From: Methylobacterium organophilum
GTDB taxonomy: Bacteria > Pseudomonadota > Alphaproteobacteria > Rhizobiales > Beijerinckiaceae
DNA length: 64,000 nt
Assembly (NCBI RefSeq): GCF_022179465.1
Contig: NZ_BPQV01000017.1
Span: 1 to 64,000, forward strand
Reading direction: 5' to 3'
Shown piece after piece: positions 28,945 through 32,658 of this stretch; position 1 is the first letter of the stretch; each line of letters starts with the position of its first letter. Both the position numbers and the translations under genes were made by a program. A model generated the notes under the pieces. It did not search any database. It was not told where the DNA came from and saw only the letters and a list, made by a program, of their open reading frames with translations.

Positions 28945-29103
28945 GTCTCGCCTCAGGGCGCAGCGCCCGGTGGCCCTGCAGGTTCGGTCGCGGCTGCGCT
29001 TCGATGTGGTCCGAAACGCGCGTGGGGACAAGACGAGCGAAGCCTGGCCGCGGTTCCCCGTCGATCGCCCGTCGATTTGATCGAGAACCGCGCAAGGATC
29101 CCG

Positions 29104-29132
29104 TTGACGCTCGCCTATCCTTCGACTAGACG
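29104..29132 (+). promoter_or_regulatory. Promoter of the ilvI attenuator transcript
   Basis: TTGACG (29104-29109), 17-base spacer, TAGACG (29127-29132). Transcription would begin near 29139, about 30 bases before the leader peptide start, which is the usual distance in attenuator-controlled operons. Confidence 0.65.
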
Positions 29133-29168
29133 GGCGGCTCTTGTTTTCGAAGCAGTCTGATACGAAGC

Positions 29169-29219
29169 ATGCGTGCGGTTCTCATCGTAGCGGAAGCGCC
29201 ACGGACGGGGCGGGCTTGA
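29169..29219 (+). CDS. ilv leader peptide [16 protein letters not shown]
   Basis: ATG at 29169, stop TGA at 29217-29219, 16 residues: [16 protein letters not shown]. Codons 4-7 are GTT CTC ATC GTA, i.e. Val-Leu-Ile-Val in a row, the three branched-chain amino acids whose synthesis depends on the downstream gene. The stop codon lies inside the first leader hairpin (29210-29229). This is the classical design of a ribosome-mediated attenuator: starvation for any of the three charged tRNAs stalls the ribosome on codons 4-7 and prevents the terminator. Too short for ordinary gene finding. Ribosome binding site is weak (GAAGC). Confidence 0.85.
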
Positions 29220-29275
29220 AATAGCCCGCGAGACCCGGTCGGTGGCGCATGCAGGGTCCCTCGGGGCCCTTTTTT
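29210..29275 (+). terminator. ilvI attenuator: pause hairpin, antiterminator and terminator
   Basis: Hairpin A: gcgggct (29210-29216) / agcccgc (29223-29229), overlapping the leader peptide stop. Terminator: agggtccc (29253-29260) / ggggccct (29263-29270), about 7 bp with a T-G wobble, followed directly by a run of six Ts (29270-29275). Alternative pairing gaccc (29232-29236) with gggtc (29254-29258) would disrupt the terminator's left arm and act as antiterminator. Arrangement and order fit translation-coupled attenuation; which segment the stalled ribosome frees is inferred. Confidence 0.8.
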
Positions 29276-29322
29276 GTTGCCGAATTCCGGGTCGTCGCAT
29301 GCGAAAGGTGATGGAGGAGACG

Positions 29323-31098
29323 ATGGGCGGCGAGGTCATGACCGGGGCCGAGATGGTCATCCGGGCGTTCCAGGATCAGGGCGTGGATACCCTGTTCGGC
29401 TATCCGGGCGGCGCGGTGCTCCCGATCTACGACGCCCTGTTCCACCAGGACGCGGTCAAGCACGTGCTCGTGCGCCACGAGCAGGGCGCGATCCACGCGG
29501 CGGAGGGCTATGCCCGCTCCTCCGGCAAGGTCGGCTGCGTCCTCGTGACCTCCGGCCCGGGCGCCACCAACATCATCACCGGCCTGACCGATGCGATGCT
29601 GGACTCGATCCCGATCGTCGCGATCACGGGCCAGGTCCCGACGCATCTGATCGGCTCCGACGCCTTCCAGGAATGCGACACGGTCGGCATCACGCGCCAC
29701 TGCACGAAGCACAACTACCTGGTCAAATCGATCGACGACCTGCCGCGCATCCTGCACGAGGCGTTCTACGTCGCGAGCCACGGCCGTCCGGGCCCGGTCG
29801 TCATCGACCTGCCCAAGGACGTCCAGTTCGCCTCCGGCGTCTACGAGCGCCCGCGCCACAACGGCCACAAGACCTACCACCCGGCGGTCAAGGGCGATCA
29901 GGACAAGATCCGCGCGGCCGTCGAGCTGATGGCCTCCGCGCGCCGGCCCGTCTTCTATACCGGCGGCGGCGTCATCAATTCCGGGCCCGAGGCCGCGCGT
30001 CTCCTGCGCGAGCTGGTGGCGGAGACCGGCTTCCCGATCACCTCGACCCTGATGGGCCTGGGCGCCTTCCCCGCCTCCGACGACAAGTTCCTCGGGATGC
30101 TGGGCATGCACGGCACCTACGAGGCCAACCTCGCGATGCACGATTGCGACGTGATGATCTGCATCGGCGCGCGCTTCGACGACCGCATCACCGGCCGGCT
30201 CGATGCCTTCGCACCCTATTCGAAGAAGATCCACGTCGACGTCGACGCCTCCTCGATCAACAAGGTCGTCAAGGTCGATGTCGGGATCCTGGGCGATTGC
30301 GCCTCGGTGCTGGAGGACATGCTCGCCGCCTGGCGGGCGCTGCCGTCCCAGCCCGACAAGGGACGCCTGGAGGACTGGTTCAACAAGATCAGCCGCTGGA
30401 AGTCGCGCGACTGCCTCGCCTACTGGCCCTCGGGCACGATCATCAAGCCGCAATACGCGGTCCAGCGCCTCTACGAGGCCTGCAAGGACCGCAAGACCTT
30501 CGTCACCACGGAGGTCGGCCAGCACCAGATGTGGGCGGCGCAGTACTTCAAGTTCGAGGAGCCGAACCGCTGGATGACCTCCGGCGGCCTCGGCACCATG
30601 GGCTACGGCCTGCCCGCCGCCATCGGCACGCAGCTCGCCAACCCGGACGGGCTCGTGATCGACATCGCGGGCGAGGCCTCGATCCTGATGAATATCCAGG
30701 AGCTCTCGACGGCGGTGCAGTACCGGCTGCCGATCAAGATCTTCATCCTGAACAACGAGTACATGGGCATGGTGCGCCAGTGGCAGGAGCTGCTGCACGG
30801 CTCGCGCTACTCGCAGAGCTACTCGGAGAGCCTGCCGGACTTCGTGAAGCTCGCCGAGGCCTACGGCGCCAAGGGCATCCGCTGCGAGAAGCCCGGCGAG
30901 CTCGACGCGGCGATCAAGGACATGCTCGACTACGACGGCCCGGTCATCTTCGACTGCGTCGTCGACAAGACCGAGAACTGCTTCCCGATGATCCCCTCGG
31001 GCAAGGCGCATAACGAGATGCTGCTCTCCGACTATCTCGGCGAGACCGGGGTCGAGATCGGCGACGTCATCTCGGAAGAGGGCAAGATGCTGGTCTGA
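29323..31098 (+). CDS. ilvI: Acetolactate synthase large (catalytic) subunit
   Basis: About 591 residues from ATG 29323, favoured over ATG 29299 and 29311 because GGAGG lies five bases before it. Condenses two pyruvates, or pyruvate with 2-oxobutyrate, the first common step of Val/Leu/Ile synthesis; ThDP, FAD and Mg dependent. Seen: [18 protein letters not shown] and [15 protein letters not shown] with the catalytic Glu (H-E-Q) near residue 50, [12 protein letters not shown], and the ThDP-binding segment GEAS...NNEYMGM near 450-475. The usual GDG of that motif reads G-E-A here (Glu451), a variant I recall from other Rhizobiales. Controlled by the upstream attenuator. Its regulatory partner ilvH is not adjacent. 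Confidence 0.96.
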
Positions 31099-31127: not shown

Positions 31128-31159
31128 CGCGCCCGGGGGCTTCAGAGGCCCCGGGCGCG
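31128..31159. terminator. GC-rich hairpin between convergent ilvI and methyltransferase genes
   Basis: Arms cgcgcccgggg (31128-31138) and ccccgggcgcg (31149-31159) are perfectly complementary over 11 bp; the methyltransferase stop codon (31142-31144) falls in the loop. No T-run on either side, so termination strength is uncertain, but the position between convergent genes suggests a shared bidirectional end. Confidence 0.45.
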
Positions 31160-32032
31160 GGCGGCGGACCGGATCCAGGCCGAGACCCGCGAGGGCGGCA
31201 GGTCGTGATGGCGCTTGGCATCGAGGGACGGCACCGAGGCGGCCCGGGCTTCCGGGCTCCAGGCGTCGCGCTTGCGCAGGAGGACGAAGAACTCGTCCTC
31301 GTTGGGCAGCGTCGGCGCGAAGGCCTCGCAGGCGAAGGGGATCAGGCCCAGCGCCAGGATCTCGGCGAGCGCCACGGCGAAGCTGTGCGGCGTGAACACC
31401 GTGCAATGGGCGTCGACATAGGTGTCCGTGCCGGCGACCTCCCGGACGATGCGCAGGGCCTCGGCGGGGCCGCCGCCGGGATAGGGCGTCGGGTCGACCC
31501 GGTGGCCCTTCCACACCGCCGGGGCATGGACCGGGCAGGCGCGGGCGATCTGCTCGTAGATCGCCGAGATGGGCGGCCGCTCCAGCCGGTTCAGATGCGC
31601 CGCGACGAGGGCGCCGGTCGGGGTCACGGGGCGGTGATGGTCGAAGGTGAAGCGCTTGTCGGGCACGACCAGGCAGACGAGGCCGTCCGCCTTCAGCGCC
31701 TCGGCCGCCTCGGCGAGCCAGCGGATGGGATCGGGGATGTGTTCGATCACATGGGCGGCGACGACGTAGTCCACGGGGCCGCGCGGCCCCAGGGCCTCGG
31801 CGAGGCTGCAGCGGTCGAGCACCACGTCGACCTCGGCGATGCCGGCCACGCCCTCCGGTCCCAGAGCCGGATGTCCGTCGTACTTCCGGCGGAGGTCGTC
31901 GGCGCCGAGGTGGTCCGCGTAGAGGATGTCGCCGTCTTCGCGGAGGATCAGAGGCCGGGCGAGGGGGCCGATCTCGACGCCGACACGTCCCGCGGGACGA
32001 ACAAATTCCAAGACACGCTGGCGCCGGTTCAT
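31142..32032 (-). CDS. Class I SAM-dependent methyltransferase between ilvI and ilvH
   Basis: 296 residues from the ATG complement at 32030-32032 (MNRRQRVLEFVRPAGRVGVEIG). A Rossmann-type methyltransferase: SAM motif I VGVEIGPLARP (about 18-28), VDVVLDRCSLAEAL, then DYVVAAHVIEHIPDPIRWLAE with the EHIPDP motif typical of methyltransferase-11/23 domains, and LVCLVVPDKRFTFDHHRP. The last ~60 residues are predicted soluble. Relatives are often found with glycan or cell-surface genes, but no such neighbour is present, so the substrate is unknown. Opposite strand to both ilv genes; 83 bases from the ilvH start, so divergent promoters share that gap. Confidence 0.8.
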   Translation of the reverse strand: MNRRQRVLEFVRPAGRVGVEIGPLARPLILREDGDILYADHLGADDLRRKYDGHPALGPEGVAGIAEVDVVLDRCSLAEALGPRGPVDYVVAAHVIEHIPDPIRWLAEAAEALKADGLVCLVVPDKRFTFDHHRPVTPTGALVAAHLNRLERPPISAIYEQIARACPVHAPAVWKGHRVDPTPYPGGGPAEALRIVREVAGTDTYVDAHCTVFTPHSFAVALAEILALGLIPFACEAFAPTLPNEDEFFVLLRKRDAWSPEARAASVPSLDAKRHHDLPPSRVSAWIRSAARARGL

Positions 32033-32115
32033 GGCGCGGCCGGTATCACCCGGGAGGACGACGGTCCAGCGCCCTTCCGGGACCCAGGGAAGACGACAGC
32101 GAAGGATCGGCACGG

Positions 32116-32658
32116 ATGAACGCGATGAACACCCACTACCCCGACGCGGTCCGCGTCGAGCCGGTCAACCGCCACACCCTCGCGGTGATCGTGGACAACG
32201 AGCCCGGCGCCCTCGCCCGCATCGCCGGCCTGTTCTCGGGCCGCGGCTACAACATCGAGAGCCTGACCGTGTCCGAGACGGAGGAGGCGCGCCACATCTC
32301 CCGCATCACCATCGTGACCACGGGCACGAACGCGGTGATCGAGCAGATCAAGGCGCAGCTCGACCGCCTGGTGCCGGTGCACCGGGTCGTCGACCTCACC
32401 CTCCAGGGCAATGCCCTCGAGCGGGAGCTCTGCCTGGTGAAGGTGGTCGGCCAGGGCGAGAACCGCAGCGAGGCCCTGCGGCTCGCCTCGGCCTTCGGCG
32501 CGCGCACGCTCGATGCCACGCTCAACTCCTTCGTGTTCGAGCTGACCGGCGCGACCGAGGAGATCGACCGCTTCATTCACCTGCTCGGCGTGATCGGCCT
32601 CGTCGAGATCTCCCGCACCGGCATCGCCGCCATGGGCCGCGGCGCGGAGCCGATGTAG
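32116..32658 (+). CDS. ilvH: Acetolactate synthase small (regulatory) subunit
   Basis: 180 residues, starting MNAMNTHYPDAVRVEPVNRHTLAVIVDNEPGALARIAGLF. An ACT domain occupies about 19-95 (NEPGALARIAGLFSGRGYNIESLTV), followed by the second ACT-like half (ELCLVKVV..AFGARTLDATLNSFVFELTG). It binds valine and confers feedback inhibition and full activity on the large subunit. Because an opposite-strand gene separates it from ilvI it must have its own promoter, and the leader attenuator of ilvI would not control it. Confidence 0.95.
   Translation: MNAMNTHYPDAVRVEPVNRHTLAVIVDNEPGALARIAGLFSGRGYNIESLTVSETEEARHISRITIVTTGTNAVIEQIKAQLDRLVPVHRVVDLTLQGNALERELCLVKVVGQGENRSEALRLASAFGARTLDATLNSFVFELTGATEEIDRFIHLLGVIGLVEISRTGIAAMGRGAEPM

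Follow-up and report, generated by a model that had tools for sequence, protein, structure and literature searches.

Ribosome-mediated attenuation of alphaproteobacterial ilv genes is already known, and the design that the original prediction for the present locus named as known for ilv/leu operons of proteobacteria is in print for this group. The Caulobacter ilvBN/ilvIH attenuator (Tarleton et al., 1994, as cited in PMC4117421) resembles our locus, as far as the available part of the citing source describes it, in that the acetolactate synthase genes of an alphaproteobacterium are preceded by a leader containing codons for Ile and Val and by a terminator hairpin. However, ilvH does not adjoin ilvI in the DNA studied here, and the Caulobacter locus in our set (L076), compared without alignment, has no leader by our search rule (a possible one is seen by eye) and no match to the Rfam family Atu_C8. 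Attenuators of ilvB/ilvIH were also predicted in Alphaproteobacteria by Vitreschak et al. (2004, as cited in PMC1273637 and PMC2573895); the consulted parts of these sources tabulate a cis-regulatory element for S. meliloti ilvIH (PMC2573895) and cite an alphaproteobacterial ilvB leader peptide (PMC1273637), and the predicted systems share gene kind, bacterial group and leader-peptide attenuation with our locus.

The choice of control codons has a precedent in the leu attenuator of S. typhimurium which, according to the available part of PMC1183508, uses rare CUA codons, a choice explained there by selective charging of isoacceptors; according to a theory given in the same paper, the codons used for control are the ones with the greatest sensitivity of translation to limitation. 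Rare synonymous control codons are likewise found in our locus; however, the bias concerns valine and is located at the final codons of the run. Our literature search, with most subscription journals outside its scope, did not return any description of an ilvI attenuator in Methylobacterium or of a GUA rule, and the term 'ilv' does not occur in the main text of the Methylorubrum start-site paper PMC9320726 or in those of PMC2873474 and PMC2881028. Here the known kind of attenuator is documented across the genus and through much of an order, and the old question of which codon of a mixed run does the sensing, and why rare synonyms are used, is recast as a question about one codon.

Organization of the ilvI leader region

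The window, i.e., the whole stretch of DNA that was analysed, comprises 64,000 nt of Methylobacterium organophilum (NZ_BPQV01000017.1, positions 1-64,000; all window coordinates are on that scale). We predict from sequence and computation, with a probability of about 0.88, that the region ahead of ilvI is a ribosome-mediated transcription attenuator of this gene (Table 1). The prediction is supported by the presence of the parts, their conservation, the covariation of a hairpin, a flip of the predicted fold and a codon bias. The original prediction had listed a 16-codon leader ORF with GTT CTC ATC GTA (Val-Leu-Ile-Val) at codons 4-7, a hairpin over the leader stop codon, a GACCC/GGGTC antiterminator and a terminator with six Ts, all of which are present by direct reading of the window. 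Thus, codons for the product amino acids stand in a leader ORF, a terminator lies ahead of the structural gene, and the two are accompanied by a conserved, mutually exclusive antiterminator. The gene itself presumably is ilvI, a name that rests on family knowledge and on the presence of an ilvH-like ORF at 32116-32658; its closest named relative among the matches listed is from Methylobacterium sp. Leaf123 (93%).

Table 1. Features of the ilvI leader region in the window.
Feature	Position	Strand	Basis or remark
Putative promoter TTGACG-17 nt-TAGACG	29104..29132	+	Read from sequence; weakest element
Leader peptide ORF, 16 codons and stop	29169..29219	+	ATG at 29169; stop TGA at 29217-29219
Codon 7 GTA (Val), proposed sensor codon	29187..29189	+	Codon bias and fold flip
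Outer stem 5' arm GCGCCAC, anti-antiterminator	29196..29202	+	Partner 29242-29248
Outer stem 3' arm GTGGCGC	29242..29248	+	Partner 29196-29202
Middle helix, 29204-29209 with 29234-29240	within 29204..29240	+	Pairing in the 48-row alignment
Inner hairpin over stop codon, 29210-29216 with 29223-29229	within 29204..29240	+	Covariation
Antiterminator 5' arm GACCC	29232..29236	+	Pairs with 29254-29258
Antiterminator 3' arm GGGTC, also terminator 5' arm	29254..29258	+	Pairs with 29232-29236
Intrinsic terminator, stem-loop and T6	29253..29275	+	Stem 29253-29270; T run 29270-29275
Conserved GTTGCC immediately past the T run	29276..29281	+	RTTG in 106/106 distinct genus leaders
ilvI, acetolactate synthase large subunit	29323..31098	+	Start taken as ATG 29323, preceded by GGAGGAG

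The terminator listed in Table 1 is the only terminator-like site found in a scan of 29000-29400 (shuffled sequences yield 0.3), and folding of 29139-29290 gives a minimum free energy of -67.1 kcal/mol (z -2.59; equally low in 3 of 200 shuffles). No riboswitch or T-box family was matched in the window, where the sole match at gathering score is a tRNA. The proposed promoter stood only in part: its two hexamers with a 17-nt spacer can be read in the sequence, and TTGACG-17 nt-TACA(C/G)G is kept in three similar leaders compared by eye (L241, L242, and L250), whereas a consensus promoter scan of 29000-29400 called none. That scan result would fit a plain terminator behind an accidental ORF, with ilvI under another promoter; conservation across the order, covariation and the geometry of the control codons make such an arrangement exceedingly improbable.

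The attenuator would operate as follows. While RNA polymerase transcribes the leader, a ribosome would translate the 16-codon ORF. When charged valine tRNA is ample, the ribosome would complete the ORF and depart, upon which the GCGCCAC/GTGGCGC outer stem could close around the inner hairpin, the terminator would form, and transcription would end ahead of ilvI. When tRNA-Val(UAC) is uncharged, the ribosome would halt when GTA codon 7 enters its A site and would hide the first bases of the outer stem; in the strand thereby freed, GACCC would pair with GGGTC and capture the 5' arm of the terminator before its 3' arm exists, so that ilvI would be transcribed.

Conservation of the leader in Methylobacterium and in the order

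The ilvI gene was found at cut-off in 110 of the 112 Methylobacterium genomes searched. A leader pattern, drawn up after the first leader peptides had been seen, has a single match at each of the 107 genus ilvI loci examined with it (108 entries, the window being counted twice), and direct inspection of the remaining three loci (L089, L090, and L092) shows that they also carry the leader. Since it is present at all genus ilvI loci examined, the leader is not a chance feature.

A covariance model, R1, built from 48 Methylobacterium leaders alone, matches the window's own genome once, at ilvI. Under stricter filters (E<=0.01), it matches 64 of the 121 genomes of the order (65 matches) and gives no match in the other 57; ilvI lies downstream in all 30 match loci that were checked from these 65, with the window and one genus mate included. 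A rule requiring four branched-chain residues in six yielded candidate leaders at 100 of the 133 non-duplicate ilvI loci outside the genus, a set that, being rule-based, may include a few false leaders (e.g., L173 and L082). No leader was found by the rule at the other 33 loci, about ten of which show one by eye; neither the rule nor the eye finds one at L095, in two Pelagibacteraceae, and at several Rhodospirillales ilvI loci. The attenuator appears to be exceptionally well conserved, and a likely sensing codon can be assigned to it.

Several further features of these loci were observed. The region upstream of ilvI in L095 is packed with repeated CTCTCCCG...CGGGAGAGG sequence. Some Methylobacterium leaders, such as L134 and L188, have approximately 100 extra bases separating the terminator from ilvI, and the leader ATG of this type lies approximately 285-300 bases ahead of the aligned ilvI start, vs. 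the usual 175 or so. A Shine-Dalgarno-like tetramer is absent from 99 of the 106 distinct genus leader ORFs, whereas ilvI has one in 84 of 106.

Conserved helices and covariation

Covariation was analysed in an alignment of 48 rows out of the 106 distinct genus leaders (A1, in which the window row begins at the second base of the leader ATG). The hairpin over the stop codon covaries, with two-sided changes in 47 cells vs. 17.7, a value reached by none of 500 shuffles and exceeding the slid controls as well; pairing likewise is above both kinds of control. In its inner helix, 95.8% of cells are paired and two-sided changes occur at four of the seven pairs, whereas the middle helix is in part poorly kept (column pair 40/77 is unpaired in 37 of the 48 rows). 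The outer stem is nearly invariant: all seven pairs are paired in 48/48 rows, with a single compensatory pair (in L123) and one-sided C-to-U changes in ten rows at one pair and in one row at another. The antiterminator helix, whose 5' arm is mostly GA(C/U)CC in the genus alignment, has 91.3% of its cells paired and no two-sided change in the 48 rows, 13 of which lack the first pair. The terminator also lacks two-sided changes, because its nearly invariant sequence hardly varies. Alignment of relatives, which had been proposed as a check, therefore bears out the attenuator reading of the region through the Val/Leu/Ile run conserved in the genus and the covarying hairpin stem, with the antiterminator conserved and free of two-sided change.

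The leader peptide tail is conserved within the genus as well, which could be taken as a sign that the terminated leader RNA or its peptide also acts in trans, as do rnTrpL and peTrpL of Sinorhizobium (a precedent described in the available parts of PMC7298713 and PMC10117765). The tail nevertheless looks as if it were kept for pairing. Its codon 11 is CCA in 76 and TCA in 30 of the 106 leaders; the first base, C or T, pairs with G either way, and the third base A is fixed even though CCA is rare, accounting for 23 of the 899 Pro codons in window genes. A function in trans is further brought to mind by the filing of Atu_C8, an Rfam family matching the same leader, as an sRNA; on balance, we consider it unlikely.

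Two proposals on the sequence near the end of the leader lack support. The sequence RTTGCC, directly after the T run of the terminator, is conserved across families, without a convincingly supported pairing partner: RTTG is found at this place in all distinct genus leaders and (A/G)TTGCC in many other leaders. As a general mark of attenuators it is unsupported, given that TTTTTRTTGCC occurs three times in the window's own genome, namely at ilvI, after another hairpin without an evident leader peptide, and at a site without an evident hairpin (by eye). RNAalifold suggested long-range pairing of codons 7-9 with the bases past the T run, in a helix similar to one of the Atu_C8 model; swap and shuffle tests do not support this helix. 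In 93 leaders outside the set of 106, own partners gave -5.61 kcal/mol vs. -5.58 kcal/mol for swapped ones, a comparison without power where neither side of the helix varies; its covariation score was reached by 2, its number of two-sided cells by 9, and its number of changed pairs by 284 of 500 shuffles, and the same helix slid by three columns scores higher (0.131 vs. 0.126).

Predicted effect of ribosome stalling on the leader fold

Folding with occupied codons, another check proposed at the outset, was approximated by hiding a growing length of the RNA 5' end, a crude stand-in for the stalled ribosome. At full-length equilibrium, masks of 0-30 nt leave the terminator favoured (mean 0.95-0.97), and no flip is seen in the stall range. 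The readout used below, chosen after that result was seen, is the fold of the RNA before the 3' arm of the terminator is made. Because the flip occurs only in this earlier fold, the model requires a kinetic choice, which is assumed.

In the 106 leaders, the terminator arm is free with 24-29 nt hidden and taken by an upstream partner in 97-100% of leaders with 32-39 nt hidden; the fraction of leaders above 0.5 is 0, 0.10, 0.32, 0.97, and 0.99 at 29, 30, 31, 32, and 33 nt, respectively. The sharp trapping at 31-32 nt corresponds to a distance of 13-14 nt, counted from where codon 7 begins. From the usual ribosome footprint, the leading edge would be expected at about that distance when codon 7 occupies the A site. 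Among eight leaders whose structures were drawn, L134 and L250 form the GA(C/U)CC/GGGTC helix and the others form mixed alternatives. In a wider set of 95 leaders (16 hand-picked from the genus and 79 distinct peptides from outside, with runs ending at different codon numbers), the first flip within a fixed range falls 10-15 nt from the first base of the last run codon in 59 cases (13 of 16 and 46 of 79, respectively) vs. 24 of 380 shuffled controls; 17 leaders have no flip, and 19 flip elsewhere. Results scattered widely under an earlier rule based on the last flip: 63 of 106 genus leaders fell at 10-13 nt and 37 of 93 others at 10-14 nt, and 27 of 93 lacked a flip.

In these model folds, a stall at the control codons is thus predicted to shift the structure at about codon 7 or later, and hardly at codons 4-6. 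The proposal that occupation of any of codons 4-7 leads to antitermination is not supported by the mask-and-fold series, since codons 4-6 leave the arm free. The claim that the codons match the end products of the enzyme holds with regard to conservation of the Val/Leu/Ile run; as the fold would barely respond to a ribosome halted at codons 4-6, sensing of Leu and Ile may be overstated. The two ends of the mask series are less clear-cut. With 0-9 nt hidden, the arm is half taken in the genus (mean 0.40-0.57; 0.02-0.36 in the window), thus an untranslated leader would not be cleanly 'off'. A ribosome at the stop codon (approximately 61-63 nt hidden) is also predicted to allow the antiterminator (mean 0.63-0.65), hence the off state would depend on ribosome release.

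Codon choice at the end of the leader peptide run

Codon 7 is GTA in 106/106 distinct genus leaders, whereas GTA makes up 7 of the 1177 Val codons in 42 predicted window genes. It is the last codon of the run in 92 leaders; the other 14 have a further Val at codon 8, which is GTG in 13 and GTC in one (L142). At codon 4, by comparison, Val is encoded by GTA in none and by GTT in 28 of 59 genus leaders. A similar preference is seen among the 79 distinct peptides outside the genus, where all 72 Val codons in the last position of the run are GTA (53) or GTG (19), with GTC and GTT absent. At the next position upstream, Val is encoded by GTA in 27 and by GTG in 13 cases; two positions upstream, by GTA in 13, GTG in 1, and GTC in 2; and at distances of three positions or more, 20 of 29 Val codons are GTC or GTT. 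All these counts are non-independent, since the leaders share ancestry. The window's own genome yielded 44 tRNA matches; a tRNA-Val gene with each of the anticodons UAC, GAC, and CAC occurs once among them, in a list that is incomplete since it contains no tRNA-Ile. The UAC anticodon reads both GUA and GUG.

The GTA at codon 7 and the terminal preference for GTA or GTG suggest that sensing may proceed through tRNA-Val(UAC). We tentatively propose, at somewhat less than even odds, that the Hyphomicrobiales ilvI attenuator approximates a sensor of one tRNA, tRNA-Val(UAC), at one position, in which a stall at the end-of-run codon would just uncover the antiterminator and the Leu and Ile codons would be poor stall sites. 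A possible alternative, which we also hold to fall short of an even chance, is that Val, Leu, and Ile are all sensed equally by the attenuator, with GTA conserved for local structure or for DNA or RNA context and not for isoacceptor sensing. Codons 5 (Leu) and 6 (Ile) are indeed conserved too, mostly as AT-rich rare synonyms (CTT in 92/106 and ATT in 54/106 leaders, respectively), an actual ribosome is bulkier than the mask, and GTA might pair weakly with the conserved sequence past the T run. On the other hand, the terminator arm remains free at the lengths that a ribosome halted on codons 4-6 would hide, and GTT would do equally well as an AT-rich codon, yet it is found at codon 7 in 0/106 leaders vs. 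the 28 of 59 seen at codon 4.

Relation to the Atu_C8 RNA family

The Rfam family RF02502 Atu_C8 ('Rhizobiales sRNA') aligns over its full length (1-122) to window positions 29164-29284, with a score of 30.3 bits, under the gathering score of 50. It scores 121.2 bits on the ilvI leader of Agrobacterium, 119 in Sinorhizobium, 116.1 in Rhizobium, and 95.4 in Mesorhizobium; these four matches above gathering score end approximately 65-100 bases ahead of the ilvI match start, in the same genomic context as in the window. Scores at L005, L008, L013, and L024 range from 28.4 to 41.3 bits. By our own reading of the alignment, the Atu_C8 consensus holds a leader ORF with a run ending in Val-Val. The family, which Rfam files as an sRNA gene and not as a leader, is thus an ilvI leader. 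The consulted part of an Agrobacterium survey (PMC3738593) states that 5' UTR leaders account for three sRNAs from an earlier study, Atu_C8 being unnamed there.

Genomic neighborhood of ilvI

In the window, a methyltransferase-like ORF (by eye; 31142-32113, minus strand) sits between ilvI and the ilvH-like ORF. The gap between ilvI and ilvH is only 141 bases in L086 and 23 bases in L087, both of the same genus; a related gene is found in the interval in L005, L007, and L091, and the interval varies in other families too. Given this variable interval and the opposite-strand ORF within it, ilvI and ilvH need not form one operon in the window. Separately, a near-threshold match to the Guanidine-II riboswitch (31.6 vs. 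32 bits) was observed at L024:555-603 on the minus strand.
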